A stretch of 64,000 bases of DNA, taken from Rhodocyclaceae bacterium. GTDB lineage: Bacteria; Pseudomonadota; Gammaproteobacteria; Burkholderiales; Rhodocyclaceae. The notes beneath the pieces were generated by a model. The model saw only the letters and a program-made list of their open reading frames with translations. It had not been told where the DNA came from and made no database searches. Location of the stretch: contig VMSX01000030.1 in assembly GCA_013791905.1 (NCBI GenBank), forward strand, positions 166,741 through 230,740, given 5' to 3'. The position numbers were made by a program, and so were the translations under genes. Below, one piece after another: positions 5,801 through 55,018 of the stretch (its first letter is position 1; each line of letters begins with the position of its first letter).

Positions 5801-6177
5801 CTGCAAAATCCGGAAAGAGCTGGGTACCCGAGCGGCAGGACATTATCTGGATCGACTGCAACCCGCAGGCGGGGCGGGAGATGCGCGACCGTCATCCTTT
5901 TCTTGTGCTGTCGCCGCGCGGTTTCAACGAGCGTACCTCACTCGTGATTGGCCTGCCCATGACCACTGCGGAATATAACGCCGACAATCCGTTCGCCGTA
6001 GCTTCAGGCCCGGCTGGGGGCAAGAAAACAGGCAAGACCAGTTTCGTTCTTTGCCATCAGCCGAAATCCTTTGACTGGCGTGTGCGCTCCGCTGCCGCAC
6101 ATCCCATGAAGCGGCTGCCGGACGCATGTTTTGCCGAGGTGTGCGGCGTGTTGAATCAGATTGTGCAACTGACCTGA
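5794..6177 (+). CDS. MazF/PemK-family mRNA interferase toxin
   Basis: A 127-residue protein of the MazF/PemK/ChpB endoribonuclease family, which cleaves mRNA at short sequences when free of its antitoxin. It shows the family opening (VPERQDIIWIDCNPQAGREM), the segment RHPFLVLSPRGFNERTSLVI, and a later strand GKTSFVLCHQPKSFDW. The GTG at 5794 overlaps the antitoxin stop (TAG 5798-5800), which argues for translational coupling. The cleavage sequence cannot be predicted by reading. A dispersed-repeat copy begins at the gene's last bases. Confidence 0.9.
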   Translation: MVAAKSGKSWVPERQDIIWIDCNPQAGREMRDRHPFLVLSPRGFNERTSLVIGLPMTTAEYNADNPFAVASGPAGGKKTGKTSFVLCHQPKSFDWRVRSAAAHPMKRLPDACFAEVCGVLNQIVQLT

Positions 6178-6211
6178 AAGTCGGCGCTGGTGCGACGGCG
6201 TGAGCCGTCGC
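6177..6211 (+). repeat. dispersed repeat copy 1, forming a hairpin
   Basis: A copy of the AAAGTCGGCGCTGG repeat begins at the toxin gene stop. Its second half forms an 8-bp perfect stem, GCGACGGC (6192-6199) with GCCGTCGC (6204-6211) around a GTGA loop. It lies between the convergent toxin and rdgC genes and may help end transcription, but no T-run follows. Confidence 0.7.
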
Positions 6212-6233
6212 GCCGCCAGCACGGGGACGGCGG

Positions 6234-7133
6234 CTATTCGACTTTCATCTCGCCGCCCAGCGCGATCAGCAGGTCATTGAGCAGGTGGGCCAGTTCGCCG
6301 GACATCAGGGCGAAATCGGCATCGAACTGTTCTTCGGCGTTGTCGGTCGATTCGGCCTGCTCCTTGAGGAGGTCGAGGAAGGCCAGACGCTTGAGATGCA
6401 GCTTGTCGGTGAGGACGAAGGAAATCCGGTCGTTCCAGGTCATGCCGAGTTTCGTGGCGATTTTGCCGTCAGTGATGTGGCCGGCAATTTCCGGCCCGGC
6501 CAGCGCGTGATGCACATAGCGGATGACGGCCTGCGACTCGCTGGCGGAACGCAGTTCCAGGTCGCTGTCGATGGTGAAGCTGGCGGGTGCTTCGTTGCTG
6601 GCCAGCCAGTCGGTCATGGCGGTTTGCGGTGAAACCTGGGTTTGCAGTGGGCGCGGCGCGATGTTGTCGAGGGTGGAGAGCAGCATCTCCATGAACTCGT
6701 CGGCCCGCGCATCGGAGCCGGCATCAACCACCAGCCAGCCATGCAGCGGATCGAGCCAGCCCCAGGTGGTGCGGCGCTGCGAGAACGCCTTGGGCAAAAG
6801 TTCTTCGGTCACGCGTTCGGCGATGTCGCGCATTTCCTTGCGACCCACCTTGCGGCTCTGTTCAGACTCGATCAGGGCGGCGCGTTCCTGGGCGGTTTGC
6901 CGGACGACCGCGGCGGGCAGCAGTTTTTGTTCGACGCCGAGGGCGATGAGCCACTGCCGATTGACGGCATGCGCGAACGCGCCTTCCTGACGCGGAAACA
7001 CCCAACCCCGGCTGGCCATTTCAAAGCTGCCGCAACGCGCGAGTGGGCGGCGGGACAATTGCTCGTCAAGCTGGGCCAGATCAATATCCAGCTTTCGCTG
7101 AAGACGGTAAACACGCAAGTTACGAAACCACAT
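6234..7133 (-). CDS. rdgC: recombination-associated protein RdgC
   Basis: RdgC forms a ring around double-stranded DNA and limits RecA activity in E. coli. The 299-residue protein begins MWFRNLRVYRL and contains ARCGSFEMASRGWVFP and later DGKIATKLGMTWNDRISFVL, all typical of the family (E. coli RdgC is about 303 residues). The ATG at 7133 is preceded on the minus strand by AGGAAAG at proper spacing; an ATG 21 bases upstream is less likely. It faces the toxin gene convergently. Confidence 0.95.
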   Translation of the reverse strand: MWFRNLRVYRLQRKLDIDLAQLDEQLSRRPLARCGSFEMASRGWVFPRQEGAFAHAVNRQWLIALGVEQKLLPAAVVRQTAQERAALIESEQSRKVGRKEMRDIAERVTEELLPKAFSQRRTTWGWLDPLHGWLVVDAGSDARADEFMEMLLSTLDNIAPRPLQTQVSPQTAMTDWLASNEAPASFTIDSDLELRSASESQAVIRYVHHALAGPEIAGHITDGKIATKLGMTWNDRISFVLTDKLHLKRLAFLDLLKEQAESTDNAEEQFDADFALMSGELAHLLNDLLIALGGEMKVE

Positions 7134-7203
7134 GAGCGATTCTTTCCTGAGCAAAGGGACGAAGGATACCTGTTTGCGCCGTAACGCCAGCCCCGACTTT
7201 TAG

Positions 7204-7578
7204 CTACCCATCAGCGTTCAGGTAATACCAGCGCCCGCCTTCACGCACGAAGCGGCTGATCTCATGCAGGCGCTCGGCACGGCCACCCATCTTGTGGCGG
7301 GCGATGAACTCGACGACTGCCGTTTCAGTACCGGTGCTGTCATGCCGCTTGACCGTGAGCCCGAGCCATTGGGTCGGCGGCGTAGTGGCAAGCTGCAAGT
7401 CTGCCGGTCGCGTCGTGGCATGCCAGGTGGCAAGCAGATAGTCCTCCAGCCCCAGCACATAGGCGCTGTAGCGCGAGCGCATCAGGCTTTCGGCATCGGG
7501 GGCGGACGCGCCGGCATGCCATAGGCCGCAACAGGAAGCGTAGGGTAGCGGGCGCCCGCAGGGGCAGTTTGTGACTAT
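7204..7578 (-). CDS. YchJ-like (UPF0225) SEC-C motif protein
   Basis: A small protein with an N-terminal SEC-C-type zinc motif ([14 protein letters not shown]) and a YchJ-type domain ([20 protein letters not shown], ending [15 protein letters not shown]). Its function is not established. No ATG, GTG or TTG lies between the upstream gene's stop and the zinc motif. The only natural coupling point is an ATA at 7578 overlapping that TAG stop (sequence ATAG), giving 124 residues. The next canonical in-frame start is the ATG at 7713, which would add 45 low-quality residues overlapping the HNH gene by about 140 bp. The start is therefore uncertain while the family call is good. Confidence 0.8.
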
Positions 7579-8003
7579 GGTTTTTTCCCCAGCCGCGCCT
7601 TCAGGTCGGCGAATGGGGAATGTGTGGCGCTGCCATTCTTGTTGCCGATCTCGGCAATGCCGCCGCTGGCTTCGAGCAGTCGCTGATGCTCGTTGTCGTG
7701 GCAATAGAGGCACAGCAATTCCCAGTTACTGCCGTTGGGCGGGTTGTTGTCGTGGTTGTGGTCGCGGTGGTGCACGGTGAGTTCGCGCAGGTTGGCGTTG
7801 GTGAAAGTGCGCGCGCAACGACCGCAGACCCAAGGGTAGATCTTCAGCGCCTGTTCGCGGTACCCCTGATCACGTTTTTCGGCGGCGCGCCGTGCCTCGG
7901 CGACGATTTTGTCGAGTTTGTCAGCGGAAGACGCCGTCCCTATGTTGGCGGCGGGTCGGACTGACGCCGTCCCGCCAGCGCCGACTTTTGTTTGATTGGC
8001 CAT
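7575..8003 (-). CDS. YajD-like HNH nuclease family protein
   Basis: A 142-residue protein with an HNH fold: a first zinc pair (CGRCARTF), the HNH core [14 protein letters not shown], and [16 protein letters not shown]. The layout resembles E. coli YajD, a putative HNH nuclease of unknown role. The N-terminus ([19 protein letters not shown]) is encoded by a copy of the dispersed repeat plus a direct repeat of GGGACGGCGTC, which looks like an added low-complexity leader. ATG 8003 is taken; ATG 8015 is also in frame. It is divergent from uvrB, with about 30 bp between the starts, and overlaps the YchJ-like gene downstream. Confidence 0.85.
7965..7989 (-). repeat. dispersed repeat copy 2 (in YajD-like N-terminus)
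   Basis: Minus-strand copy of the AAAGTCGGCGCTGG / GGGACGGC repeat, reading K-V-G-A-G-G-T-A in the YajD-like gene. A second GGGACGGCGTC lies 33 bp downstream on the minus strand (7930-7940), so the local unit is longer and partly tandem. Confidence 0.85.
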
Positions 8004-8034
8004 TGAATATCCCATTGAACGTTATCATCACACG

Positions 8035-10095
<2,061 letters not shown>

Positions 10096-10473
10096 CTAGC
10101 GGGAGCGGGAGCGGCGCGGCTTTTCGAGCGCGGCGGCAGCCTGCTTTTTCGTGCGCGGTACCGGCTTGCGGCGCGGTTTTGGCGCGGTGGCGGCCTCTTT
10201 CTCCGGATTCTTGCGCCACAGCACGAAGATATTGCCGATATGCTGTACCGGTGCACATTGCAGATCGGCACAGAGAGTAGCCAGCAGGGTGTCGCGCGCA
10301 TCCCGTTCGATGCCGTGCAGCTTCACTTTGATGAGTTCGTGCGCTTTCAGGGACACATCGATTTCCTTCAGCACGGCGGCTGTGAGACCATGCTGGCTGA
10401 TGGCGACGACGGGCTGGAGATGGTGGGCGGTGGCGCGCAGGGCGCGGCGCTCAATAAGAGTTAATTCAATCAT
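10096..10473 (-). CDS. yhbY: YhbY-family CRM-domain RNA-binding protein
   Basis: A 125-residue protein with an N-terminal CRM domain ([20 protein letters not shown], later [19 protein letters not shown]) and a basic C-terminal tail rich in Lys, Arg, Pro and Ala. YhbY binds ribosomal precursors in E. coli. Its stop directly abuts the uvrB stop. The start lies 15 bp from the rlmE start on the other strand. Pairing of yhbY divergent from rlmE-ftsH is common in beta- and gammaproteobacteria, which supports the call. Confidence 0.93.
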
Positions 10474-10488
10474 GTACGGATTCTACCT

Positions 10489-11118
10489 GTGAGCTGGTCA
10501 ACGAAGCAGCAAAAAAAGAGCAAGGTGTGGATGCAGCAGCACGTCAACGACCCCTATGTCCAGCAGGCCAAGAAGGAAGGCTGGCGCTCGCGGGCGGTGT
10601 TCAAGCTCCAAGAGATCGACGAAAAGGACCATCTGTTGAAGCCCGGCATGACGGTCGTTGATCTGGGCGCAACGCCGGGTAGCTGGAGTCAGTACGCCGT
10701 CAAGCGCATCCAGCCAGGTGGGCGCATGATTGCGCTTGACCTGCTTGAAATGGATCCGTTGGCAGGCGTGGATTTCATCCAGGGCGACTTTCGCGAGGAA
10801 AGCGTGCTGGAACAGCTAAAGTCGGCGCTGGCAGGACGGCAAGTTGACCTTGTTTTGTCGGACATGGCACCCAATATGACGGGTATCGCGGCAACCGATG
10901 GCGCGCAAGTTATGCTGCTGGCCGAATTGACGCTGGATTTTGCGCGTGATCACCTGAAACCTGGCGGCGCCTTGCTGGTCAAAGTATTTCAGGGTGCGGG
11001 GTTCATGGAATTGCGCAAGGCCTTGCGGGAAGGTTTCGCAACCCTGACGACCCGCAAACCGGCGGCGTCAAAGGATCGTAGTGCGGAATTGTATTTGCTG
11101 GCCAAGCAGAAAAAGTAG
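10489..11118 (+). CDS. rlmE: 23S rRNA (uridine-2'-O-)-methyltransferase
   Basis: RlmE (FtsJ/RrmJ) methylates the ribose 2'-OH of U2552 in 23S rRNA using SAM. The 209-residue protein has [14 protein letters not shown] (catalytic lysine region), the SAM site [29 protein letters not shown] with the catalytic aspartate, and [14 protein letters not shown]. The start is GTG 10489, next to the divergent yhbY start. ftsH follows 105 bp downstream in the usual order. A copy of the dispersed repeat is inside the gene at 10818-10840, reading LKSALAGRQ. Confidence 0.97.
10818..10840 (+). repeat. dispersed repeat copy 3 (inside rlmE)
   Basis: A 23-base match to the repeat with one difference (GCAGGACGGC instead of GCGGGACGGC). 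Here it is read in a different codon phase from the K-V-G-A-G copies, as K-S-A-L-A-G-R. Confidence 0.75.
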
Positions 11119-11141
11119 TTTGCTCCAAGGGTGGTTGTGAT

Positions 11142-11223: not shown

Positions 11224-13122
<1,899 letters not shown>

Positions 13123-19800: not shown

Positions 19801-22029
19801 GTGGGGCGCTACCGCGCTACCACGCTCACGGCGTAGTGCCTCGCCTACCGTGGTGAAGCGGCTGTCGTTCCGCCAATCTTCGAGATCCAGGGGCAGACGC
19901 CGCCGCCAGTTGGCATGCTGGTCGTCGCGGCTACCAGGCAGGTTGGTCTGCTCGACGATGCCGAGGATGTCCTCGGGTTGCACTAACAGAAGCTGCGCCG
20001 GCGTCCGCGCCAGATAGGTGTGGATGGCGACCACGAAGGGCAGTGTAATGTCGGGCATGGAAACCGGATGGACGCCCACGCCCGCCGGCAGCAGACCCTC
20101 ACGCTCCAGCGCCATCAGGAAGCGGGCGCGATCCTGGGCACGTTCCATCACGCGCTGGTCACGCTGTTCCGTAGAGGGAAACAGTTGCAGGCTGGCGCGG
20201 GTATCGAGGTCGTCGCCCTTCCAGAAGCCGCGCAAAGTTGGCAGATCGTGGGTACTGACGGCCACCAACGCCTGCTGCGGATAATCGGCTGGCGGCTTGA
20301 AGCTGCCATCGGTTGTACGTTCGAACAGGAAGGGCCGATAGGAAAGAATTCCGGTCTCGATCAGGCGGGTTCTGAAGCCCGCTGGCACTGTGCCCAAATC
20401 TTCGCCGATCACCAGGCAGTGGTTGCGCTGGCTCTCCAGCGCGAGGATGCCGAGCAGGTCATCGAGTGGGTAGGCGACGTAGGTGCCCTGTTCCGGCGAC
20501 AGCCCGGCGGGTACCCAGAATACGCGGGTGAGCGCCATGGCGTGATCGATGCGCAGTGCGCCGCAGTGACGCATATTGGCGCGCATCACGGCGATGAAGG
20601 GGGCGTAGGCTGCTTCACGCAAATGATGTGGCACGAAGGGCGGCAGTCCCCAGTCCTGGCCGAAGGGATTGACGTCATCGGGTGGCGCACCGGCGTAAGC
20701 GCCCGCAGCAAAGGCATTCTGCCAAGACCAGGCTTCAGAGCCACCCGGATGCATCCCCAGCGCCATGTCCTGATAGAGGCCCACCCCCAGGCCGTGGCGC
20801 CAGGATTGCAGACCTACTGTGGCAAGCTGCTCGTCGGCCAGCCACTGCAGCCAGGCGAAGAATTCGACGGCAGCGGCATGTTCAGTCGCGAACGCCGCCA
20901 CCGCGGGGGCCTCGGGCTGTCGATATTCCTCCGGCCAGGCCGGCCAGCCCCAGACACCCGGATTTTCGCGCCGAAAGTGCGCTTGCAGGGCCTCGAAGCG
21001 CGCGTGGCGTTCCAGGGCTTCGCCACCTTCCTCGCGAAACCGTCGGAAGGCACGCGCGCGATCGCTGTCGTTAACGAGGTGGTGATCGCGAAAATGGTGA
21101 TGGAGCAGGGCGAGTACCTCGCGCTTGGCGCCCGCTACCTCCGGATAGCTAACCAGTTCGCTGGCACGCAACCGTCGCAGCCGCGCCTGAAAACGCTCGG
21201 AGGCGACCAGATCGCGCGCCGTGCCGCACTCGGAAAATTCCGGCACGGCCTCCACATCAAGGTAAAGAAAGTTGACGAAGCAGCGGTTCGATGGGCTGTA
21301 GGGGCTGATCCGCCCGGGGTCGTCGGGGAAGAGGGCATGCAGGGGATTGACGCCGACCACGCCGCCGCCACTCTCTGCCGTCAGGTCCACCAGCGTGCGC
21401 AGATCGCCGAAATCGCCGATGCCCCAGTTGCGTTGCGAGCGCAGTCCGTAGAGTTGCACCGACGGGCCCCAAGCGCGGTTTTCACCCGATATGGCTGCGG
21501 GCTGGTAGCAAGTTCGCGGCGCGATGATGAGCGTCATGGCCGCCTGCGGCTGGACCTCATGTCCTGGTTGTTCGACTTCAACGCGATAGTAACCGGGCGT
21601 AGTGAATGGCGGCAGCTTCAGTTCCATGCGCTGGAACTCGACACCATCCAGACGCTGGTCTTGTATGCGCAGCAGATCGGCGGGAAAGAATTCTTCCGTT
21701 GTCGTCGTGCCGTCCTCTCGCGTCAGTATCCAGCGATACCGTTGCTGTATCAGTGCTGCGGACAATGTGAGCGGAATGGCCGGGGTCGCGTCGACACGCA
21801 ATACCATGACCGGTGGCAGCGGCCGCCGCCATTCACGTTGCTCCATCTCGCGCAGTAACGTGGCCGGGTCGGCTTCAGTCGGAAAGTGCATGGCCGCCAG
21901 CAACGCGCGTCGGGTGGCGTCGGTGGTGGCGTGACGCTTGTTCCAGATGTCGCGATACTCGGTGGCGATGCCGCAGTGGGCGGCGAGTTGCACCAGTGCG
22001 TCTGAACTGCTTCGGGCAGGACGCGTCAT
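16891..22029 (-). CDS. fusion: 4-alpha-glucanotransferase (MalQ) + malto-oligosyltrehalose synthase (TreY)
   Basis: A 1712-residue fusion of two GH77/GH13 enzymes. Residues about 1-740 are MalQ, with SVQLYGLRSQRNWGIGDFGD, the nucleophile block RIDHAMALTRVFWVPAG, CLVIGEDLGTVP and STHDLPTLRGFW. Residues about 750-1712 are TreY: ATYRLQFNNEFTFAQATTL, GSGHGYDIVDH, DVVPNHMGI, nucleophile block GLRIDHPDGLYDPG, LYLVIEKILA and TSTHDSKRSEDVRARI. MalQ lengthens glucan chains by disproportionation; TreY turns the reducing end into an alpha,alpha-1,1 linkage for TreZ. The joint lies near base 19775. Both ends overlap neighbours by ATGA (treZ upstream, glycoside hydrolase downstream). Both halves keep their catalytic triads. 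Confidence 0.95.
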   Translation of the reverse strand: MTRPARSSSDALVQLAAHCGIATEYRDIWNKRHATTDATRRALLAAMHFPTEADPATLLREMEQREWRRPLPPVMVLRVDATPAIPLTLSAALIQQRYRWILTREDGTTTTEEFFPADLLRIQDQRLDGVEFQRMELKLPPFTTPGYYRVEVEQPGHEVQPQAAMTLIIAPRTCYQPAAISGENRAWGPSVQLYGLRSQRNWGIGDFGDLRTLVDLTAESGGGVVGVNPLHALFPDDPGRISPYSPSNRCFVNFLYLDVEAVPEFSECGTARDLVASERFQARLRRLRASELVSYPEVAGAKREVLALLHHHFRDHHLVNDSDRARAFRRFREEGGEALERHARFEALQAHFRRENPGVWGWPAWPEEYRQPEAPAVAAFATEHAAAVEFFAWLQWLADEQLATVGLQSWRHGLGVGLYQDMALGMHPGGSEAWSWQNAFAAGAYAGAPPDDVNPFGQDWGLPPFVPHHLREAAYAPFIAVMRANMRHCGALRIDHAMALTRVFWVPAGLSPEQGTYVAYPLDDLLGILALESQRNHCLVIGEDLGTVPAGFRTRLIETGILSYRPFLFERTTDGSFKPPADYPQQALVAVSTHDLPTLRGFWKGDDLDTRASLQLFPSTEQRDQRVMERAQDRARFLMALEREGLLPAGVGVHPVSMPDITLPFVVAIHTYLARTPAQLLLVQPEDILGIVEQTNLPGSRDDQHANWRRRLPLDLEDWRNDSRFTTVGEALRRERGSAVAPHDEEPPAPRLAVIPRATYRLQFNNEFTFAQATTLAPYLADLGVSHCYASPYLKARAGSGHGYDIVDHAALNPEIGSPQDYDNFVAALKAHDLGQILDVVPNHMGIMGADNAWWLDVLENGPASAWGNFFDIDWEPLNPILRGKVLLPLLGDHYGTVLNRGEFRLEYDAAHGEFSIFYYQHRLPVDPASYPHIVGHHSEHLAITLGENDERYIELQTLLTAFGHLPARTDTNAARMGERQRDKEVHKRHLAALSESCADIAHHITENLTEFNGQPGNESSFDLLHELIQQQGYRLAFWRVASDEINYRRFFDINDLAALRMDEPAVFEATHRFVLDLLAQGKIEGLRIDHPDGLYDPGRYFRRLQEVAGGKPLAADDPLPLYLVIEKILAEHERLPDDWPIHGATGYRFANLANNLFVDTAAERRMTRIYHDFSGAADDFDTLAYEAKKLIMRTALSSELNVLATRLARIATASRDTCDFTLNGLRDALVEVVACFPVYRSYVAHGQLSADDRRHIAWAVAVAKKRSPAADTGIHDFLQDVLTTDIARGRSASFRERVQAFAMKFQQFSSPVMAKGVEDTAFYRYHRLTSLNDVGGEPRRFGISVAAFHAATRARAARWPHNLLATSTHDSKRSEDVRARINVLSEMPAAWKLMLRRWSRWSRSRKRVVDGVEAPSRNDEYLLYQTLLGTWPLMLPDEAALADYRARIEAYMIKALREGKEHSSWVNVNTEYEAAMSSFVQALLAPGEKNLFLADFVPIAQPIARHGLINSLAQALVKLVSPGVPDIYQGCELWQFNLVDPDNRRPIDFVRRNELLAEVKALVDAPPAQWPQRLQPLVTNMADGRIKLYTHWQSLSLRARWPEVFRDGDYLPLTVSGAGAMHACAFARRHAGRTLIALVPRLPARLLGDHHALPLGAEVWGDTAIELPDDLAELEWDNALTGEHHPASRNLALGQLLNCFPVALLVAENHA

Positions 22030-23861
22030 GAGGTTTTCACCGCCTGCAGGTACCAGCTTGCCGACCAGGGAGGGCGTTGCCCGCTGGCCAAGGCGGCATC
22101 ATCAAGGTTGGCGGTGGCGAAGAGCCTGGTACCGGATGCGGGCGCGGCAGTCGCGGCGCTGTTCCCCAGATTGGCGCAGAGCGACAGCCGGCTGCCGTCG
22201 CCGAAGTGCCAGTGCACGGCCAGCGCGCGCTCCGCCAGCATCTCCAGCTTTGGTTGCCCGTTATCCATGCCGGCCAGGCGCGGAACGATCCACTGCCGGC
22301 GCAAGGCGAGCAGCTGCCGGTGCAACGTCAGCACGGATCGGTGGGGCTCTTTTTCGATGGCATTCCAGTCGAGAACGCAGGTGGCAAAAGTGGCGACGGC
22401 GTTGGGATCGGGAATGCGCTCTCGCGCGGCAGGATTGGCGAAGCGCGTGAACTGTGCGAACTCGCGCCGCCGGCCTTCGGTCACGGCGCGGGCGAGTTCC
22501 GGGCCGAAGTCGCAGAAGAACAGGAAGGGCTGCTCTGCGGCGAATTCTTCACCCATAAACAACATGGGGGTCTGTGGCGCGAGCAGCAACACCGCCGTGA
22601 CAGCCTCCATTGCAGCCGGCGTGGCGAGGTGACAGAGCCGTTCGCCAAAGGCGCGGTTGCCGATCTGGTCGTGGGTCTGCAAAAAGTTGATAAAGGCTGT
22701 GGGGGGCAGGTGTTTGCTCGATTCGCCCCGCAGTTCGCCGTTGCGAAAGGGGGAAGGGTCGTTCTGGAAGGCAAAGCCCTCAGTCAGGCAGCGGCCCAGC
22801 TGGTGTGCGGGGGCGGCCGCATAGTCGGCGTAATAACCGTCGATTTCGCCGCTGGCGAGCACGTGGAAAGTGTGGTGGATATCGTCATTCCATTGCGCGG
22901 TGCCGTCCCGCCAGCGCCGACTTTCGTCGCGAGCCAGATAATGGGCTGCGTTGCGGTCGTTTTCCAGCACGATGTGTACCTGGCGCTCGCGGCCGGGTCC
23001 GTTGCGCACGGCGGCCCCGAGCTCTTCGACGATGTCGGGCGAGCTGTCGTCGCAGATGGCGTGGATGGCATCCAGACGCAGACCGTCGAGGTGATACTCC
23101 TCAAGCCAGTAGAGAGCATTGTGGATGAAGAAATCGCGCACCGTGCGCGCGCCGGGGCCGTCGAAGTTGATGGCCGCGCCCCAGGGCGTCGCATGGCGCG
23201 GGTTGAAGAAGTCCGGCGCATAGGCATGCAGATAGTTGCCCTCGGGCCCGAAGTGGTTGTAGACCACGTCGAGCAGCACCATCAGACCACGCGCGTGGGC
23301 GGCGGCGATCAGGCGCTTGAAGTCTTCCGGACGGCCGTAGGCGGTGTCCGGCGCGAAAGGCAGCACGCCGTCATAACCCCAGTTATGGCGACCGGGAAAG
23401 TCCGCCACGGGCATGATTTCCAGCGCGGTCACGCCGAGGTCGACGAGATAATCGAGCCGTTCCTCGACCCCGGCGAAATTTCCGGCCTGCGTGAAGCTGC
23501 CGACATGCAATTCATAAATCACTGCCTCTTCCCAGGGGCGGCCGCGCCAGTTGTTATCGGGCCAGTCGAAGGCAGTCGGGTCGACGACCTCCGACGGGCC
23601 ATGGATGTCTTCGGGATTGCGGCGCGAGGCCGGGTCGGGCACCAGCAATCCATCAGGGAGCCGAAACCGGTAGCGGCTGCCGGCACACGCTGTCGGTACC
23701 GTTAGTTCGTATCTGCCGCCACCGACGGCCGCCATCGGCAAGTCCTGCTGCTCATCGAGTTGCAGTGCGACAGTAGCGACGCCAGGCGCCCAGAGACGGA
23801 AGCAGACACCGCCACTGTCGAGCAGTTCGGCGCCAAAGGGCATGGTGTGGCGGCGTTTCAT
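22026..23861 (-). CDS. treZ: malto-oligosyltrehalose trehalohydrolase
   Basis: Releases trehalose from the maltooligosyl-trehalose made by TreY. The 611-residue protein has an N-terminal beta-sandwich (FGAELLDSGGVCFRLWAPG), then a GH13 barrel with the TreZ pattern: LEIMPVADFPGRHNWGYDG (about 145), GLRLDAIHAICDDSSPDIVE with the nucleophile (about 260), HIVLENDRNAAH with the acid (about 293), and INFLQTHDQIGNRAFGERL (about 390). A copy of the dispersed repeat encodes the loop ESRRWRDGTAQW right after the acid block. It overlaps glgX (ATGA upstream) and malQ-treY (ATGA downstream). The start may be Met1 or Met7. Confidence 0.96.
   Translation of the reverse strand: MKRRHTMPFGAELLDSGGVCFRLWAPGVATVALQLDEQQDLPMAAVGGGRYELTVPTACAGSRYRFRLPDGLLVPDPASRRNPEDIHGPSEVVDPTAFDWPDNNWRGRPWEEAVIYELHVGSFTQAGNFAGVEERLDYLVDLGVTALEIMPVADFPGRHNWGYDGVLPFAPDTAYGRPEDFKRLIAAAHARGLMVLLDVVYNHFGPEGNYLHAYAPDFFNPRHATPWGAAINFDGPGARTVRDFFIHNALYWLEEYHLDGLRLDAIHAICDDSSPDIVEELGAAVRNGPGRERQVHIVLENDRNAAHYLARDESRRWRDGTAQWNDDIHHTFHVLASGEIDGYYADYAAAPAHQLGRCLTEGFAFQNDPSPFRNGELRGESSKHLPPTAFINFLQTHDQIGNRAFGERLCHLATPAAMEAVTAVLLLAPQTPMLFMGEEFAAEQPFLFFCDFGPELARAVTEGRRREFAQFTRFANPAARERIPDPNAVATFATCVLDWNAIEKEPHRSVLTLHRQLLALRRQWIVPRLAGMDNGQPKLEMLAERALAVHWHFGDGSRLSLCANLGNSAATAAPASGTRLFATANLDDAALASGQRPPWSASWYLQAVKTS
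22902..22925 (-). repeat. dispersed repeat copy 4 (inside treZ)
   Basis: Exact consensus copy on the minus strand, AAAGTCGGCGCTGG then CGGGACGGC. In the treZ frame it reads E-S-R-R-W-R-D-G-T-A. It falls between the catalytic-acid block and the QWNDD block, where TreZ proteins vary. Confidence 0.9.
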
Positions 23862-41487: not shown

Positions 41488-42771
41488 TTAAACCAGACCG
41501 CTCATCAGTTGCACCTGCACCGTCTCGCCAGCGCCGACTTTCTCGCGCTCGGGTTCGAGCACGATGAAGCAGTCGGCACGGGCCATCGAACTGAGGATGC
41601 CCGAGCCTTGTGTGCCGGTCGGCCGCACGCACCATTCGCCATTTTCCTGGAACAGCACGCCACGCTGGAATTCGGTGCGGCCGCGACCTTTTTTCATGGC
41701 ATCGACACAGCGTGCCGGAAAGCTCGGGAAGGGCGGCACGGGATTGACGCCCGCAAGCTTGAGGATGGCGGGGCGGACAAACTGGTAGAAGGTGACCATC
41801 ACCGCCACCGGGTTGCCGGGCAGGCCGAAGAGCCAGGCGCCGGCATCGTTCTCCCCGCCGGGCTGGATGCGGCCGAAAGCCATCGGCCGGCCGGGTTTCA
41901 TGGCGATCTTCCAGAACGCGACCTCGCCCAGTTGTGCCATCAATTGCTTGATGAAATCGGCCTCGCCGACGGAAACGCCGCCACTGGTGATGATGGCGTC
42001 GGCACAACCAGCAGCTTCCCGGAAGGCCGCTTCGAGCGCGGCCGGATCGTCCCTGACTACGCCCATGTCAATGACGTCGCAGCCCAGTCGGGTGAGCATG
42101 CCCCACAGGGTATAGCGGTTGCTGTCATACACCGCGCCGGAGAGCAGCGGCGTGCCGACAGAACAGAGTTCGTCACCGGTCGAGAACAGTGCGACACGCA
42201 CGCGGCGGCGCAGCGAAACTTCGGCCAGTCCCAGTGAGGCGATGATGCCAAGCTCTGCCGGCCGCAGTTGCTTGCCGGCAGAGAGGGCCGGTTTGCCAGC
42301 CTGAAGATCTTCGCCGGCACGACGGATGTGTTGTTCAAGACGCTGGCCGGGCGGGATGATGACTGCATCGCCGTCGACGCGTACGACTTCCTGCACGACC
42401 ACGCTATCGACGCCCTCGGGCAGCGCGGCGCCTGTCATGATGCGCGCCGTCTCGCCAGCGCCGACTTTTGCCGTGCAGGGGCGGCCGGCAAAGGCGGTGC
42501 CGATGTTCTTCAGGCGTGTCTCGCCGCTGACGGCAAGATCGGCATGGCGCACTGCCCAGCCGTCCATGGCGGAGTTGTCATGCGCCGGCACATTGAACGG
42601 CGCAATGACATCCTCCACCAGTACCCGGTCCAGCGCCTGATGCACGGGCAGCCGTTCATGTCCGGCAACCGGCTGCAGCGTATCGAGGATCAGTTGGCGG
42701 GCACGCTCTACCGGGAGGGAATCGGGGTCGTAATCGTCGGTGCAGGAAAAGGTCTTGAGCAGGGAGGTCAT
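41488..42771 (-). CDS. aorE: MoeA-family molybdenum/tungsten cofactor insertion protein (AorE-like)
   Basis: MoeA proteins insert molybdate or tungstate into adenylated molybdopterin. The 427-residue protein has the expected layout: LPVHQALDRVLVEDVIAPF, PAHDNSAMDGWAVR, RIMTGAALPEGVDSVVVQE, VALFSTGDELCSVG, YDSNRYTLWGMLTRLG, DAIITSGGVSVGEADFIKQL, KPGRPMAFGRI and LFGLPGNPVAVMVTFYQFV. As the fifth gene of an aorABCDE operon it is most likely dedicated to tungsten cofactor for the aldehyde oxidoreductase, by analogy with Aromatoleum. Metal choice is inferred from context. Two copies of the dispersed repeat lie inside it and read K-V-G-A-G-E-T. Confidence 0.9.
   Translation of the reverse strand: MTSLLKTFSCTDDYDPDSLPVERARQLILDTLQPVAGHERLPVHQALDRVLVEDVIAPFNVPAHDNSAMDGWAVRHADLAVSGETRLKNIGTAFAGRPCTAKVGAGETARIMTGAALPEGVDSVVVQEVVRVDGDAVIIPPGQRLEQHIRRAGEDLQAGKPALSAGKQLRPAELGIIASLGLAEVSLRRRVRVALFSTGDELCSVGTPLLSGAVYDSNRYTLWGMLTRLGCDVIDMGVVRDDPAALEAAFREAAGCADAIITSGGVSVGEADFIKQLMAQLGEVAFWKIAMKPGRPMAFGRIQPGGENDAGAWLFGLPGNPVAVMVTFYQFVRPAILKLAGVNPVPPFPSFPARCVDAMKKGRGRTEFQRGVLFQENGEWCVRPTGTQGSGILSSMARADCFIVLEPEREKVGAGETVQVQLMSGLV
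41520..41542 (-). repeat. dispersed repeat copy 5 (MoeA-like C-terminus)
   Basis: AAAGTCGGCGCTGG then CGAGACGG on the minus strand, one base different from consensus in the second half. It reads E-K-V-G-A-G-E-T-V in the C-terminal domain of the MoeA-like protein. Confidence 0.8.
42446..42469 (-). repeat. dispersed repeat copy 6 (MoeA-like N-terminal half)
   Basis: AAAGTCGGCGCTGG then CGAGACGGC on the minus strand. It reads A-K-V-G-A-G-E-T-A just before the conserved RIMTGAALP block. It shares the GAGACGG variant with copy 5, 0.9 kb away in the same gene. Confidence 0.8.
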
Positions 42772-47238: not shown

Positions 47239-47239
47239 C

Positions 47240-47944
47240 ATGGGAGAAATCACCACGAGCCTAGTGCTGGCCGGGGAACTGGTTGCGACCGGTGATGCGC
47301 GGTTGGCCTCCATCGTCACGCTGAGCCTGCAGGTCAGCCTCACCGCCACGCTGCTCGCCTGCCTGATCGGCATGCCGCTCGGCGCGCTGCTGGCGGTCGG
47401 CCGCTTTCCCGGGCGGCATACGCTGATCGTGTTGTTCAACGGGCTGATGGGCCTGCCACCAGTGGTGGTCGGCCTGCTGGTCTATCTGCTGCTGTCCCGT
47501 GCCGGCCCGCTGGGACAGTTCGGTTTGCTGTTCACCCCGGCCGCCATGATCATCGCGCAGACCATATTGATTGTGCCCATTGTCGCCGCACTGGCGCGGC
47601 AGGTGATCGAGGATGCCTGGCGCGAATATCGGGAACAGTTGCGCAGCCTCGGCGCGAGCCGGCTGCGCGCCGCCATGACGCTGCTCTGGGATGGCCGCTT
47701 TTCGCTCACCACTGCGGGGCTGGCAGGCTTCGGGCGGGCCATTGCCGAAGTCGGGGCGGTGATGATTGTCGGCGGCAACATCGATGGCGTCACCCGCGTC
47801 ATGACCACCACCATCGCACTCGAAACGAGCAAGGGCGATCTGCCGCTGGCGCTGGCCCTCGGGCTGATCCTGATCGCCGTGGTACTGGCGGTGAATACAG
47901 CAGCCTTCATGCTGCGCCAATGGGCGGAAAAGCGATGGGGATAG
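47240..47944 (+). CDS. tupB: tungstate ABC transporter permease
   Basis: A 234-residue inner membrane permease with five to six hydrophobic helices. The EAA-type loop for the ATPase is REYREQLRSLGASRLRAAMT (about residues 130-150), and GFGRAIAEVGAVMIVGGNI is typical of TupB/ModB permeases. TupB with TupC and TupA imports tungstate at very low concentration; closely related systems carry molybdate. It overlaps the ATPase gene downstream and is 1 bp from the unknown gene upstream. Tungstate specificity is inferred from the TupA protein and the neighbouring tungsten enzyme. Confidence 0.93.
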   Translation: MGEITTSLVLAGELVATGDARLASIVTLSLQVSLTATLLACLIGMPLGALLAVGRFPGRHTLIVLFNGLMGLPPVVVGLLVYLLLSRAGPLGQFGLLFTPAAMIIAQTILIVPIVAALARQVIEDAWREYREQLRSLGASRLRAAMTLLWDGRFSLTTAGLAGFGRAIAEVGAVMIVGGNIDGVTRVMTTTIALETSKGDLPLALALGLILIAVVLAVNTAAFMLRQWAEKRWG

Positions 47945-48630
47945 GAATGGCGTGGCTGGTGCTCGATCGGCTCGGGCTGACCGAGAACGGCGTCTGCATC
48001 ATCAATGACGTCAGCCTGAAAGTCGGCGCTGGCAGAACGGCGATTCTCGGCCCCAATGGCGCCGGCAAGAGCACCTTGCTGCGCCTGATGCATGGGCTGC
48101 TGCGTCCCAGCGCAGGTGCGCAACACTGGCCCGCCCCGCTGACGCAGGGCATGGTGTTTCAGCGCCCGGTGATGCTGCGCACCACCGCTTTGGCCAATGT
48201 CGAATACGGGCTCAAGCTGCGCGGGATCAAGACGCCTGAGCGACGGCAGCGGGCCATGGCGGCGCTGGAGCGTGTGGGGCTGCCAGCGATTGCCGAGCGT
48301 CCCGCCCGCCGCCTGTCCGGCGGCGAACAACAACGCGTGGCGCTGGCACGCGCCTGGGCGCTGGAACCGCAAGTGCTGTTTCTCGACGAACCCACCGCCA
48401 GCCTCGACCCTGCCAGCAGCCGCGAGGTCGAGCGCATCATCCGTGAGATTGCTGCATCCGGCACCCGCATTGTGATGACGACCCATAATCTCGGCCAGGC
48501 ACGACGCATCGCCGAGGAGGTGCTTTTCATCGACAGTGGCCGGGTGGTCGAGCAGAGCCCCGTCGAAGAATTTTTCACCCGGCCGCGCCATGTGGCCGCG
48601 CAACGTTTTCTTGAGGAGGAAACCCCATGA
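47935..48630 (+). CDS. tupC: tungstate ABC transporter ATP-binding protein
   Basis: A 231-residue ABC ATPase with Walker A ILGPNGAGKSTLLRLMHGLL, Q-loop VFQRPVMLRTTAL, signature RRLSGGEQQRVALARAWALE, Walker B VLFLDEPTASLDPASS and the switch histidine in VMTTHNLGQARRIAEE. There is no C-terminal regulatory domain, consistent with TupC rather than ModC. The start overlaps the tupB stop (ATG 47935; 47920 and 47947 are alternatives). A copy of the dispersed repeat encodes LKVGAGRTA just before Walker A. The stop overlaps tupA by ATGA. Confidence 0.94.
   Translation: MGIGMAWLVLDRLGLTENGVCIINDVSLKVGAGRTAILGPNGAGKSTLLRLMHGLLRPSAGAQHWPAPLTQGMVFQRPVMLRTTALANVEYGLKLRGIKTPERRQRAMAALERVGLPAIAERPARRLSGGEQQRVALARAWALEPQVLFLDEPTASLDPASSREVERIIREIAASGTRIVMTTHNLGQARRIAEEVLFIDSGRVVEQSPVEEFFTRPRHVAAQRFLEEETP
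48019..48042 (+). repeat. dispersed repeat copy 7 (inside tupC)
   Basis: AAAGTCGGCGCTGG then CAGAACGGCG. It reads K-V-G-A-G-R-T-A, occupying the position where ABC ATPases have a Gly-Glu turn before Walker A, so the gene length is not changed. Confidence 0.75.
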
Positions 48631-50489: not shown

Positions 50490-50561
50490 GGTGATACCTC
50501 CATAAGGCGTTTTTGAGACGGCCACGAGAATCGAGGCCAAGTGCTTGCCGGTCTTACTCAG

Positions 50562-51218: not shown

Positions 51219-51233
51219 GTTCCCGGGATGTTC

Positions 51234-51509
51234 CTACCGAGTCTCCGGCCGGTCCTTGCACACCAGGAAACCGGCTCCTGGAAACGTGCTAGGGTCGTCG
51301 TTCTCGAAGGCAAGCGCACTTGGGACGCTAGTTCTGACCTCTGCCGTGTATCTTCGAGCTTCATTGAATGCATTGATCGAGGTGTCCGCATGTGCCGTGT
51401 CGCGAAGCTGGACAACGATAGCAAGGAATGCGAGCACTAGGACCGTTGAGGAAGCGTGCAACGATCGCGTTGCCGACCCGCAAGGCCGAGGCGATGTAAT
51501 GGAGAACAC
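51234..51509 (-). CDS. island gene 4: small protein with N-terminal membrane or signal segment
   Basis: A 91-residue protein starting with GTG 51509. Hydrophobic segment TVLVLAFLAIVVQLRDTAHA (about residues 23-42) could be a membrane anchor or a signal peptide, followed by a polar domain (SINAFNEARRYTAEVRTSVP). It starts 6 bp after gene 3 ends and stops 15 bp before gene 5, and this tight packing is the main reason to accept it. No family recognised. An opposite-strand frame exists over the same bases but has no operon context. Confidence 0.6.
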   Translation of the reverse strand: MFSITSPRPCGSATRSLHASSTVLVLAFLAIVVQLRDTAHADTSINAFNEARRYTAEVRTSVPSALAFENDDPSTFPGAGFLVCKDRPETR

Positions 51510-51515
51510 GGTCTC

Positions 51516-52100
51516 TCAGCCTTTCGAATCGACGAGAATGACATCGGCACCGCACTGGAGTTTGACACAAGCGCAGAGCATTTTGATCAGGGTCTCTATC
51601 TTCTTCTTGCTCAGACTTTGTTTGCTGACATACCAGCCGCCTCCGATGGACTCGGTTGCCGCACGCAGCAAATCCGCAGAGAGATTGGGCAGCAAAGCCT
51701 CGCGCGATTGGGCGACGCGCAGCGTCGCATTGCAACCCGAGTTCAGACTAGCAACGGCCGCGCCCCATTGGCTCGGATAGTCTTCGCGCACTTGTCGGCA
51801 AAGGCGGATGAACCAATCCTTGTAGTGACGACACGGGTAGCGTGTTTCCTTGTAGATCAGCGCGCGCTGGCCGTGAGCCGAGCGAACGGGGTGGCGTACC
51901 TTTTGTGCGTTGCTCACTATCAGCGCGAGGGGTCTTGGAATGGGACGGGTGTGCCTGTCCAGAATCGCAAGGTCCGAATACATCTGGCTGCGTTTATCCT
52001 CCACGAGCGTTTCGAGTGCACGAATCTGCGAATCCGTCTGCTCAATTCGCGTGAGAAAACCGTTCCAATCAGTACCTACAGGTTTGAAATGGGCGTTCAT
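51516..52100 (-). CDS. island gene 3: unknown basic protein
   Basis: A 194-residue protein with no recognised domain. It has an N-terminal coiled-coil-like stretch (RIEQTDSQIRALETLVEDKR), a basic middle (ALIVSNAQKVRHPVRSAHGQ, then KDWFIRLCRQVREDYPSQW), and a cysteine-containing end (IETLIKMLCACVKLQCGADV). The conserved-looking block AVASLNSGCNATLRVAQSRE is near residue 115. Two ATG codons are adjacent (52103, 52100). The second has better spacing from GGAGG. The stop of gene 2 overlaps the start (ATGATGA), so translation is coupled. Confidence 0.7.
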   Translation of the reverse strand: MNAHFKPVGTDWNGFLTRIEQTDSQIRALETLVEDKRSQMYSDLAILDRHTRPIPRPLALIVSNAQKVRHPVRSAHGQRALIYKETRYPCRHYKDWFIRLCRQVREDYPSQWGAAVASLNSGCNATLRVAQSREALLPNLSADLLRAATESIGGGWYVSKQSLSKKKIETLIKMLCACVKLQCGADVILVDSKG

Positions 52101-52375
52101 CATTTCCTCCGTACGTGGTAATGGCGATGGCCTACGGTGACAGTGGCGCCATCGCAGGTGCTGACAATCTTGAAACAGCGGAAGTACGACTCCATGCGGC
52201 GGACAGGTTCGCGACCTAGGTCCCGCTCCATCGAACGGATACTGTGTTTGTCGAAGTAGAGGCGCACTGCTCCTCGTCCGTCATACTCTTCGCGGCCGTA
52301 CTGGTCCAACCACTGACTGACGAGCGGCGGTATCCCGCGCTGCTGTGATCGAGTATTAGCGTGACGCGTGTTCAT
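52100..52375 (-). CDS. island gene 2: small DUF4258-like protein
   Basis: A 91-residue protein with QQRGIPPLVSQWLDQYGREE, LYFDKHSIRSMERDLGREPV and DGATVTVGHRHYHVRRK at the end. The pattern (helical start, then strands ending in T-V-x-H-R) resembles small RelE-like or DUF4258-like proteins, some of which are toxins. That resemblance is by eye and modest. ATG 52375 overlaps the stop of gene 1 (ATGA), and its stop overlaps the start of gene 3. With the ribbon-helix-helix-like gene 1 directly upstream it could form a toxin-antitoxin-like pair. Confidence 0.65.
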   Translation of the reverse strand: MNTRHANTRSQQRGIPPLVSQWLDQYGREEYDGRGAVRLYFDKHSIRSMERDLGREPVRRMESYFRCFKIVSTCDGATVTVGHRHYHVRRK

Positions 52376-52911
52376 GGCTCCGCCCTCGCGCCCCGTTTGA
52401 TCTGTTCCCAATGGGCACGTTCCTGTTTCAAGCGTTCCTTGGTCCAAATCAGTTGTCGGTAATAGTCCGGGTCGAGCGCGCCATCGATCTCGAACTGGTC
52501 AACCCCCAAGACGGATCGGATGGTCTTTTCGGTCTCTTCGCGCGAAAGACCTAGGGACGTTCTTGGATTGGCGATGATCAACGCCGGTTCGATCAGGCGC
52601 ACGCACAGGAACCAGATGAACGCGTCGAAGAAGGCATTTCGCGGGATGTTCCTTTCGGCGCAAACCCTGCTAAGACGCTCGGCTGTCGCGTCGTCCAGCG
52701 ATAGCGTCACACGTGTGCTTTCGCCTCCAAGGTTGGCTAGCGCACGCGCATGCTTTGCCCCTTCTGCGTCACTGGCGGGCAACAATTCGATCGCATCGAT
52801 TTCCGCCGGCAGGCACCCGTTCAAGTAGGCGTCGCGTCTAAGCTTGAGAACCTCAAATATCTCTGTGAGCGTCTGCCAAGGCCTCGTGTGAACATTAGCG
52901 GTGATATCCAT
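52372..52911 (-). CDS. island gene 1: ribbon-helix-helix-like protein
   Basis: A 179-residue protein. Residues about 70-105 (STRVTLSLDDATAERLSRVC, then AERNIPRNAFFDAFIWFLCV) resemble a ribbon-helix-helix DNA-binding unit: one polar strand followed by two helices. The rest is helical (IFEVLKLRRDAYLNGCLPAE; YYRQLIWTKERLKQERAHWE). ATG 52911 follows AGGAAAAAGAC. It heads the six-gene unit behind a promoter with a perfect -35. As a DNA-binding-like first gene it is a plausible autoregulator. The family is not identified. Confidence 0.7.
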   Translation of the reverse strand: MDITANVHTRPWQTLTEIFEVLKLRRDAYLNGCLPAEIDAIELLPASDAEGAKHARALANLGGESTRVTLSLDDATAERLSRVCAERNIPRNAFFDAFIWFLCVRLIEPALIIANPRTSLGLSREETEKTIRSVLGVDQFEIDGALDPDYYRQLIWTKERLKQERAHWEQIKRGARAEP

Positions 52912-52942
52912 GTCTTTTTCCTTTAAAAACGTCATAGATGTA

Positions 52943-52984
52943 CTTTTACACCGGTAACGCGGTAATGTCAAGCCGCATATGCGG
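52943..52984 (-). promoter_or_regulatory. predicted promoter and palindrome of the island unit
   Basis: On the minus strand TTGACA (52971-52966) and TAAAAG (52948-52943) are 17 bp apart, about 32 bp before the first ATG. A perfect palindrome CCGCATATGCGG (52973-52984) abuts the -35, and GGTAACGCGGTAA repeats lie in the spacer. These are candidate operators for the ribbon-helix-helix-like protein encoded next. Confidence 0.6.
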
Positions 52985-53043
52985 GATGCAACCGTCGAAT
53001 CACGAGGTATGTCATAAATACAAATAGATACAGTTGTACGCAA

Positions 53044-53426
53044 TTAGGGCCAGCGCGGCTACGTCGCAACGTTTTCGCTTTGTTGCCCCTCAAGCTCACT
53101 GGAAAGGCTTAATAGCGCCGCCTGGCTTCCACTACAAACAAGTTCAAGGGGGTTCCACGCCAGCGTTCTGGCAGGCGGCCGCAAGGTGGCGCGTACCGGA
53201 CAATTCGCTGTAAATGATCGAGCGACAGCTATGGCCGAGTTGTGTTAATTGGTCTTCTGGCAGGTGCCGAGGTACAGCAGTCGTCCGGATGTCAGCTATC
53301 CGGAATCATCGAGCGGCGGCAGTTGGCCGACAGCCCGCGTACAGCATGAAGCCGGGCGCCTCCAGCGTTATTTCGCCTATTCAATCTGATTCGGTCCGTC
53401 CTGCCCAGGTCAGTTCAGTCTGAGCC
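53044..53426. other. non-coding gap upstream of the Fic gene's 3' end
   Basis: About 380 bp between the island unit and the Fic gene. I see no convincing gene. A 69-codon frame on the plus strand is too short and lacks a ribosome binding site. The sequence may be a decayed gene or element remnant, but nothing identifiable is left. Confidence 0.5.
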
Positions 53427-54848
53427 TTAATTATTCTTGCCCCCCTCTGACTTCTCAGCCTGTTGCAGCGGTTGCCACGTGCGGTACTCAGACAGTCGCA
53501 ACCGGTAACGGGTGACGTTGCCTTCATGTAGATTCCGCAGGTCGTCCAGGGCCAATTCGATGATTTTATCCAGGTCCTCTGATGGCACCAGCGCCGCTGC
53601 CACGGCGCGCACGGCCGCTTCGCCGGAAGGCTGCTGGCCGCGCACGATCTCAGCCACCACGGCAATCAGTGCTTCGCGGTAGCGCAGGCGCACGGGGTCG
53701 GGCTCGGCGACGGTTTCGCGAATGGCCATGTAGCGTTGGCAGGAGCGCTCGTAGGCCCACACGAACACATCGCGCAGGAGATCGACTTGTTTCATCTCGT
53801 ACACGCCCAGTGTGCCTTCCACATAAGCCCGTTCGGGTACATCGATGAAGGACAGTGGGCAAAGGTTGTGCCGGATGAGCGGGATGTTGGCGCCCAGCCG
53901 GGATACCCGCTTGTTCACGTCGACGAACGGTTGCAAGTAGGGGATATGGACCATGATGAAAAAGGCTTGCTCGAAGGGGTCTTCGATCGCGCCGGCCTTT
54001 TCCAGGATCATGCGGAAATAGGCGTCGATCTGCTGCGGGATGCCCAGAGGGTGAAACACCGTGCCGCTGACCTCGACAATGCGACTGCGAAGCCTCCCGC
54101 TCTCGCTCGGGTCGGCGAGCAGGTTTTCCGACAGCAGCGCGTGCAGGTTGTGGAAGGTGAAGGTGTTGAAGCCGATGTCCTCGGTCTCGTTCACCAGCAA
54201 CTCGATGGCCGCCTTGTGGTTCAAGATCATCTGCGCTTCGCGGCGATCCTTCCCTGCGGCGGCCTGACCTCTCTCGATCAGGTTTTGCGTATCGAGGCGG
54301 GTATAGGTGTTGCCTTCGAGCTGGCTCGATGCCCAGGACAGATCGATCAGCAGTCGCCCCAGGATGTCGCGCGCATAGGTGCCGGCCGGACGCTCACCGT
54401 CGGGAGAGCGCCCGATGTTGTGCAGGTGATCGCGAATTTCCGGGGATAGGTAGCTGGACGCGTTGGGGCGATACGCTGCCAGAAAATTTCGGTCATAGCC
54501 CACCGGCTTGCGGCCTTGGATGGGTTGGCTGACGTAGGCCTTGATTTCCGCACCCTCGGGTGAAGTGGGCACATATATTTCGAAGCTGCCCGCACTTACG
54601 GTGTTGATCTGGACAGAATTGCCCCCCCTAACCAAGACGGGCGCAAACAGATATCGGATTGCTTTCCCTTCGCCCTTGACTTGAATTCTCTGGTGCCCGA
54701 CCAAGTTAGCCAGGCGCCGCTGCAGGGTGCGGCGGCTGACGATATCGGCCAAAACGGTATGCAGATCGTCGATGCCGACTCCATCCGGATGTTGGGCAAT
54801 CTCGGCTTCTATTCTTGCGTGCAAATCCTCGGGGAGTTTTTTTGGCAT
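53427..54848 (-). CDS. Fic-domain protein with N-terminal winged helix, atypical Fic core
   Basis: A 473-residue protein. The N-terminal 70 residues form a probable winged helix (ADIVSRRTLQRRLANLVGHQ). An inhibitory helix motif SSQLEGN (about residues 173-180) precedes the Fic domain, whose core reads PYLQPFVDVNKRVSR near residue 303. Standard Fic AMP-transferases have HPFxDGNGR; here the catalytic His is Gln and DGN is DVN, while Asn-Lys-Arg is kept. A C-terminal helical tail follows (RYREALIAVVAEIVRGQQPS). ATP use or transfer activity may be altered or lost. ATG 54848 follows AAGAAGG. Three palindromes lie immediately upstream. Confidence 0.88.
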   Translation of the reverse strand: MPKKLPEDLHARIEAEIAQHPDGVGIDDLHTVLADIVSRRTLQRRLANLVGHQRIQVKGEGKAIRYLFAPVLVRGGNSVQINTVSAGSFEIYVPTSPEGAEIKAYVSQPIQGRKPVGYDRNFLAAYRPNASSYLSPEIRDHLHNIGRSPDGERPAGTYARDILGRLLIDLSWASSQLEGNTYTRLDTQNLIERGQAAAGKDRREAQMILNHKAAIELLVNETEDIGFNTFTFHNLHALLSENLLADPSESGRLRSRIVEVSGTVFHPLGIPQQIDAYFRMILEKAGAIEDPFEQAFFIMVHIPYLQPFVDVNKRVSRLGANIPLIRHNLCPLSFIDVPERAYVEGTLGVYEMKQVDLLRDVFVWAYERSCQRYMAIRETVAEPDPVRLRYREALIAVVAEIVRGQQPSGEAAVRAVAAALVPSEDLDKIIELALDDLRNLHEGNVTRYRLRLSEYRTWQPLQQAEKSEGGKNN

Positions 54849-54859
54849 GTGGCACCTTC

Positions 54860-54963
54860 TTTTGGCGCGTAACTGGTTATTCGCGCCAAAAGACTAACTG
54901 TATTGGCGCGTTTTGTCAAAATACGCGCCATTGTGTGGCGCGATAAATGAGTATCGCGCCACA
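54860..54963. promoter_or_regulatory. three tandem GGCGCG...CGCGCC palindromes upstream of fic
   Basis: Site 1: TTTTGGCGCG (54860-54869) with CGCGCCAAAA (54882-54891), 10-bp perfect arms. Site 2: TGGCGCG (54904-54910) with CGCGCCA (54924-54930). Site 3: TGTGGCGCGAT (54934-54944) with ATCGCGCCACA (54953-54963), 11-bp perfect arms. Site 1 touches the fic ribosome binding site. Shared half-sites and close packing suggest cooperative operators, most simply for the winged helix of the Fic protein itself. Confidence 0.75.
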
Positions 54964-54993
54964 ATTTCCCGGCAGATTGTTCTACCCCACCCC

Positions 54994-55018
54994 GAAAGTC
55001 GGCGCTGGCGGGACGGCG
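54994..55018 (+). repeat. dispersed repeat copy 8 (intergenic)
   Basis: GAAAGTCGGCGCTGG then CGGGACGGCGG, an exact consensus copy in the 75-bp gap between the fic operators and the amtB stop. This and the copy at 6177 lie essentially outside coding sequence. Confidence 0.9.

Follow-up and report, generated by a model that had tools for sequence, protein, structure and literature searches.

What places the same short sequence in a bacterial genome again and again, inside genes as well as between them? The question is raised by a 64,000-nucleotide stretch of the genome of a Rhodocyclaceae bacterium (GCA_013791905.1, contig VMSX01000030.1, positions 166,741 to 230,740; hereafter the window), in which an earlier reading of the letters alone (the sequence-only reading) had noted eight dispersed copies of a core on both strands, a number that it took to be beyond chance. 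All eight exact copies of the core, AAAGTCGGCGCTGG, were found where it had placed them, on both strands, together with a single-mismatch copy at 7187-7200. With up to two mismatches the core has 9 matches in the window, against 1.06 expected from dinucleotide shuffling, and the 23-mer AAAGTCGGCGCTGGCGGGACGGC with up to three mismatches has 9 against 0.01 expected, so chance is no explanation. The repeat proves to be a 25-bp, non-palindromic motif with the consensus RAAAGTCGGCGCTGGCGGGACGGCG. Judged by its likeness to known systems it is probably a DNA-uptake-type recognition sequence; the sequence-only reading had rightly named an uptake signal as a candidate, and the measured traits of the motif resemble those of the DNA uptake sequence (DUS) and the uptake signal sequence (USS).

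A genome-wide count, which that reading had proposed, returned 184 and 199 exact 14-bp cores on the two strands (383 in all) of this 3.64-Mb, 30-contig genome (G000 below), and none on either strand for the reversed pattern. The 23-mer with up to two mismatches occurs at 209 and 217 sites (426), again with an empty control. The anatomy of the motif was examined in 864 kb, made up of the window and 800 kb from contigs C1 and C4. Here the 25-mer with up to five mismatches has 152 sites, about 1 per 5.7 kb, the classes with 0 to 5 mismatches numbering 18, 39, 41, 21, 19 and 14; the reversed control had no site even at six mismatches. The information content of the consensus is about 37 bits, somewhat inflated because the sites were chosen for closeness to it. 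The ends of the motif are sharp, and conservation is weakest at the opening base (R) and at the two bases preceding ACGGCG. Sites are spaced somewhat more evenly than random, with a coefficient of variation of 0.76 in C4 (P 0.006) and, less clearly, 0.82 in C1 (P 0.08).

We examined the context of the 152 sites using genes from our own open reading frame (ORF) caller, which gave a coding fraction of 0.861. Ninety-three sites are genic (61%), 52 intergenic and 7 at gene edges, an intergenic enrichment of 2.46-fold (P 3e-10, edge sites counted as coding). One could suppose that a conserved KVGAG-type peptide, or codon bias, generates the repeat, and the largest group of coding copies, 42 of the 93, does share one frame, reading KVGAGGTA. 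The other same-strand frames read KSALAGRR (11 copies) and a third peptide (3), and the opposite-strand frames AVPPAPTF (23), RRxASADF (13) and a third (1), so that all six frames are in use, with a bias to small flexible peptides. With five further frames and both strands used, 52 of 152 copies outside genes and the reversed controls empty, a coding artefact has practically no chance of being the explanation; the intergenic copies refute it.

Orientation follows local GC skew at 76 of 150 sites, which is neutral to the replication strand. This bears on a second possibility, that an abundant chromosomal protein of nucleoid, segregation, repair or recombination function binds the motif, which would be kept by selection at roughly regular spacing. 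A long specific site with fairly even spacing would suit such a protein, but the lack of replication polarity is unlike Chi or KOPS (FtsK-orienting polar sequences), which are strongly polarized with replication. Chromosomal sites of this length are otherwise known only in far smaller numbers. By flanking genes the 52 intergenic sites are tandem (34), convergent (13) or divergent (5); the convergent excess and divergent lack among them did not reach P 0.05. A general role as terminator was considered and set aside; a downstream hairpin partner is found at 6 of the 52 intergenic and 5 of the 93 coding copies. The sole close inverted pair (G000:C4:437439-437496) has starts 33 bp apart and convergent genes on either side, and is terminator-like as DUS pairs are. 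Copies are scarcer in genes of unusual codon usage: by quartile there are 7.0 sites per 100 kb in the most atypical quarter, against 15.2, 16.2 and 11.7 in the others; that quarter has 11 sites in 157 kb, and the remaining genes have 80 in 560 kb (P 0.02; genes of at least 450 bp).

The window shows how the copies sit in and between genes. Six lie in genes, as the sequence-only reading had it, and Pfam assignments agree on the hosts: HNH, FtsJ (RlmE), alpha-amylase plus DUF3459 (TreZ-like), MoeA and ABC ATPase, both MoeA-type copies falling in a single moeA gene. On the minus strand are the copy at 7965-7989 in the HNH gene (7575-8015, minus), whose peptide includes KVGAG; that at 22901-22925 in the treZ-like gene (22026-23861, minus), reading ESRRWRDGTA; and the two in moeA (41488-42771, minus), one at 41518-41542 in the C-terminal domain reading EKVGAGETVQ and a second at 42445-42469 reading AKVGAGETAR. 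On the plus strand are the copy at 10817-10841 in rlmE (10489-11118, plus), reading KSALAGRQ, and that at 48018-48042 in the tupC-like ABC ATPase gene (about 47920-48630, plus), where the KVGAG peptide directly precedes GPNGAGKS. Four copies thus read K-V-G-A-G (HNH, ABC and MoeA twice), as many as had been claimed. The intergenic copies are at 6176-6200 (plus; differing from the 25-mer at 3 bases), flanked by a MazE-like gene (5534-5800, plus) and rdgC (6234-7154, minus), with a hairpin-capable tail GACGGCGTGAGCCGTC; at 7177-7201 (minus), a degenerate copy, AAAGTCGGGGCTGGCGTTACGGC, in the space that separates rdgC from the HNH gene; and at 54994-55018 (plus), adjoining an ammonium transporter gene (55039-56286, minus).

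How such a copy arises was judged from rlmE, moeA and clean filled/empty pairs only; long blastn alignments of intergenic sites with distant relatives were set aside because they are gap-rich (33 of 84 aligned sites had a gap inside the motif). At the rlmE site the motif is also present in the same-genus genomes G126 and G187, with partial matches in G159, G080 and G019. Identical bases in repeat-free relatives, which the sequence-only reading had named as the refuting result, were not seen at this site: most relatives outside the genus have unrelated codons. The stretch from VL to SDMAP has identical length in all 19 loci read (of 30), and both moeA sites align gap-free to Escherichia coli MoeA (1fc5). 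The motif was therefore not inserted at these three sites; it was written there by substitution or by replacement with homologous DNA. The sequence-only reading was right that protein length is kept, and right that copies lie in genes; its phrase that the repeat enters coding sequence does not hold at the three sites compared with orthologues, where codons were replaced in place.

These sites also bear on a third idea, that of a mobile or selfish palindromic element as the origin of the motif, of the type of repetitive extragenic palindromes (REP) with their REP-associated tyrosine transposases (RAYT), miniature inverted-repeat transposable elements (MITE) or Rickettsia palindromic elements (RPE), the short form being a minimal or decayed insertion. 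The motif is non-palindromic, and a 25-bp insertion would break the frame where gap-free codon replacement is seen. What does look inserted, and in frame in genes, is a set of hairpin modules inside some motif copies, and G000 has one RAYT-like Y1 transposase gene; no module adjoins that gene, and overall we regard a mobile origin of the motif as very unlikely. The mobilizing enzyme that the sequence-only reading had thought worth seeking is not required for the short motif; the modules alone look inserted.

The modules, of 21, 24 or 27 bp, interrupt some motif copies in G000. Module 1, TGACCGAAGGRAATCCCC(TTTTC or GT)GGGA, is 24 or 27 bp long and stands after GGCG and before CTGG; module 2, TGAAATGCCCCGCAGCGGGTA, is 21 bp long, sometimes tandem, and separates GGGA from CGGCG. 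Example loci are C4:175182, C4:408024 and C1:347351 (L174, L186 and L165). Module 1 has 20 copies in the 864 kb, 17 with a left motif arm and the other 3 in a second repeat, GAGCCGGGTTTG^CGAGCGTGGGG, which is unrelated to the motif and also exists uninterrupted. That second dispersed repeat, around GAGCCGGGTTTGCGAGCGTGGGG, is uninterrupted at C1:330213 and C4:355618 and carries module 1 at C4:55928 and C4:248629. At three places G000 has a module where a relative has the motif uninterrupted; the flanks are gap-free in two of them, and the third has gaps downstream. In genes, alignment of TrpC with 6y88 leaves a nine-residue gap across the module region, RsmA, which carries both modules (15 residues), has 16 gap columns there when aligned with 3uzu, and the HI0933-like gene has a module-free motif in a relative (L037); in HypF, CheA, QueG, an epimerase, a PMT-like transferase and the UvrA end, the in-frame modules are supported by the open frame and Pfam only. 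We infer a gain of modules here, and not their loss elsewhere, since the motif is more often whole than interrupted and module 1 enters the second repeat too. RAYT as mobilizer of the modules was rejected, the single Y1 gene (G000:C25:293915, L313) having no motif module beside it. The word AGGAAATC was tried as part of a long repeat and dropped, as its contexts were mostly those of ordinary genes, although it led to the hairpin modules.

The module word GTGACCGNAGGNNATCCC was counted in our family set of 199 Rhodocyclaceae genomes, G000 included. It occurs 62 times in G000, 29 in G168, 23 in G149, 13 each in G008 and G138, 12 in G126, 4 each in G038, G040 and G066, once in 15 others and not at all in 175 of the 199, with a control of 0. 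Twenty copies were fetched: all 8 from G149 lie inside its own spelling of the motif (dialect 2, below), though elsewhere in it, between GGTG or GGCG and GTACGCC; 11 from G168, G008, G126 and G138 lie in dialect-1-like motifs, some arms degenerate and one G008 position shifted; and the single copy from G040 does not.

The motif itself is unevenly distributed in the family. The exact core occurs in 77 of the 199 genomes, with 56 to 439 copies in 21 of them (dialect 1) and next highest counts of 12 and 10; reversed controls gave 0 to 2 per genome. Among the matches listed, most contigs that carry the exact 23-mer bear the title Rhodocyclaceae, several of these being Sulfuritalea, and four such contigs align to G000 at 91-93% over 1.6-2.4 kb. 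Other genera spell the motif differently. Dialect 2, AAAGTCAGNNNNGGCNNNACGCC, belongs to genus g66, where three genomes have 172, 232 and 90 copies and a fourth (80% complete) has 1; any other genome has at most 3. In genus g11 the generic pattern AAAGTCNGNNNNGGNNNNACGNCG finds 82, 64 and 37 sites in three genomes and 1 in the fourth, and in G023 it finds 42; dialect 3, AAAGTCAGTCSCGGCG-N2-ACGGCG, was derived from the listed g11 sites together with a 120-kb sample. In G019, G080 and G159 the generic pattern finds only 2 to 6 sites despite 102 to 272 cores, because the motif there, at least in G080, ends ACGGCA. The motif of genus g2 begins GGAGAGTC, and g64 has GGTGA. Dialect samples were gathered with the generic pattern, one mismatch allowed (reversed-pattern counts 0 to 2), and share ARAGTC-R-G, GG and ACG-S-C in fixed register, an architecture that is partly by construction because of the way the sites were collected. 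Among their differences, dialect 1 has CTGG, dialect 2 mostly CGTGG and dialect 3 mostly CCCGG. The other overrepresented word in a sample of G046 (L285-L288), TGTCGTTGCC, with 18 copies in 80 kb, is unrelated to the motif.

Sites of the dialect-2 and dialect-3 genomes G114 and G010, or of G023, could be aligned to dialect-1 genomes at 10 distinct places, and at 5 of these the motif is present in both partners (3 exact generic matches, 2 with one or two mismatches). At the shared place in rlmE, G000 has AAAGTCGGCGCTGGCAGGACGGC and G114 the dialect-2 AAAGTCAGTCTTGGCGGGACGCC. In a tree of RlmE plus FtsH from 50 genomes (4 by RlmE only; g11 not among them), all 21 dialect-1 genomes, G114 and G023 fall on one side of a branch with support 79, as do the motif-poor G029, G045, G065 and G083; a 58-kb sample of G065 had no copy at up to seven mismatches. 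A chromosomal-protein site would accommodate positions shared across dialects, and also the two conserved blocks, which stand about one and a half helical turns apart. Sister genera with hundreds of differently spelled sites, on the other hand, would fit an external receptor better. Together with the missing replication polarity this makes a chromosomal protein an unlikely explanation, and an uptake-type sequence the one that we prefer.

Outside the family the motif is rare. In other families of the order, 22 of 386 genomes have 1 to 5 copies (23-mer, up to two mismatches), and several of these copies cluster within kilobases. Similarly, in the motif-poor G083, which is a single contig (some draft genomes may be contaminated), all five exact cores lie within 41 kb (C1:1461-1502 kb; L258, L259), and the generic pattern finds one further degenerate site elsewhere. 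Ten ORFs scanned in 40 kb from this stretch include CopB, a multicopper oxidase, a DDE transposase, RND pumps and a P-type ATPase, and over 963 bp the stretch is 87% identical to a Casimicrobiaceae contig (L040) that bears the motif at the corresponding position; it is a copper and heavy-metal resistance island with a transposase, shared in part with that contig. The motif also serves as a heritable label, few and often clustered copies elsewhere marking probable donors of transferred DNA. In G041, otherwise motif-poor, copies of dialects 1 and 2 occur within 7 kb (C16:3862-10711), as if imported from two kinds of donor.

If the motif is an uptake sequence, the machinery of natural transformation would have a surface receptor, probably a minor pilin of type IV, with a preference for DNA bearing the site. 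Site-bearing DNA of kin would then be imported and recombined more often, and over time such a drive would write the site, and keep it, at the places that protein sequence and regulation permit; the genera would have drifted to their own dialects, presumably along with the receptor. The comEC gene of G000 (L252) is an intact 829-codon open frame, and itself carries two motif copies (1 and 3 mismatches). G000 has 14 matches to the pilin N-terminal family, among them PilE-like (C4:263672) and FimT-like (C4:264106) minor pilins, which gave only general pilin matches against PDB and NCBIfam, with no ComP among the matches listed. A pilin-like gene (L198) has the motif core at its start, reading AVPPAPTF.

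Several observations weigh against the uptake reading. ComEC is found in 194 of the 199 family genomes, 27 of the 28 motif-rich (the sole one without it being G149, 85% complete) and 167 of the 171 others, and therefore does not discriminate; near-universal in the family, it was rejected as a discriminator and is at most necessary for the motif. A minor-pilin operon of PilE-FimT-PilW type likewise occurs in both motif-rich and motif-poor genomes, so the FimT/PilE operon was rejected as a motif-specific receptor, and no receptor correlating with the motif was found among the minor-pilin operons of the two groups. The even spacing is significant in one contig only (C4). Inverted pairs are frequent in DUS (PMC2397512) and make up about 10% of such sequences (PMC1939737), but only one close pair is found among the 152 copies here. 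Finally, the partner genome was without the motif at the other 5 of the 10 cross-dialect places, which slightly lowered our confidence in the uptake reading. We class the motif as uptake-type by likeness and not as a proven member.

A bolder version is tentative, and we think it rather less likely than not to hold in full: that this is a third, independently evolved sequence-specific uptake system, having a receptor of its own and three dialects or more, parasitized by in-frame hairpin micro-elements of 21-27 bp that insert specifically into the motif in any of its dialects and ride on DNA that the cell prefers to import. A third family, if true, would mean that the trait evolves repeatedly; studies of specificity would gain another receptor-motif pair, one whose dialects are natural, and there would be a guide for designing DNA to transform these bacteria.

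As stated in 2025, DUS and USS are known only in Neisseriaceae and Pasteurellaceae. A literature search, reaching few subscription papers and no preprints, found no publication on such a motif or on an uptake sequence in Rhodocyclaceae, and a motif-discovery paper (PMC5217627) has none of the terms for the family that were sought in it. Like the motif, DUS are abundant and non-palindromic, lie on both strands in genic and intergenic DNA, and have dialects that track phylogeny (PMC3630211). DUS are absent from recently acquired genes in Neisseriaceae (PMC2397512). Unlike the continuous 10-13 nt of DUS, the motif is bipartite and 25 bp long; the core CTG of every DUS dialect is present in dialect 1 but missing from dialects 2 and 3, and the density is lower than that of DUS, which have about 1900 copies per Neisseria meningitidis genome (PMC3630211). 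With USS the motif shares a long site (core plus extension), origin by point mutation and even spacing, and USS of Haemophilus influenzae are 65% in ORFs (PMC1939737). The start of the motif, AAAGTCGG, resembles AAAGTGCGG minus one base, a likely coincidence. The consensus has no AAGTGCGGT or ACAAGCGGT core; its extension is G+C-rich and specific, whereas that of USS is AT-rich (PMC12616744). The hairpin modules (the modules only, not the 25-bp motif) are like RPE in lying in frame inside housekeeping proteins (PMC10969869), but they measure 21-27 bp instead of about 150 bp and are nested inside another repeated motif. With CTG lost in two dialects and the USS core absent, the motif is neither DUS nor USS proper, and from the likeness of its traits the reading that we favour is a third kind of uptake-type sequence, longer than those two.

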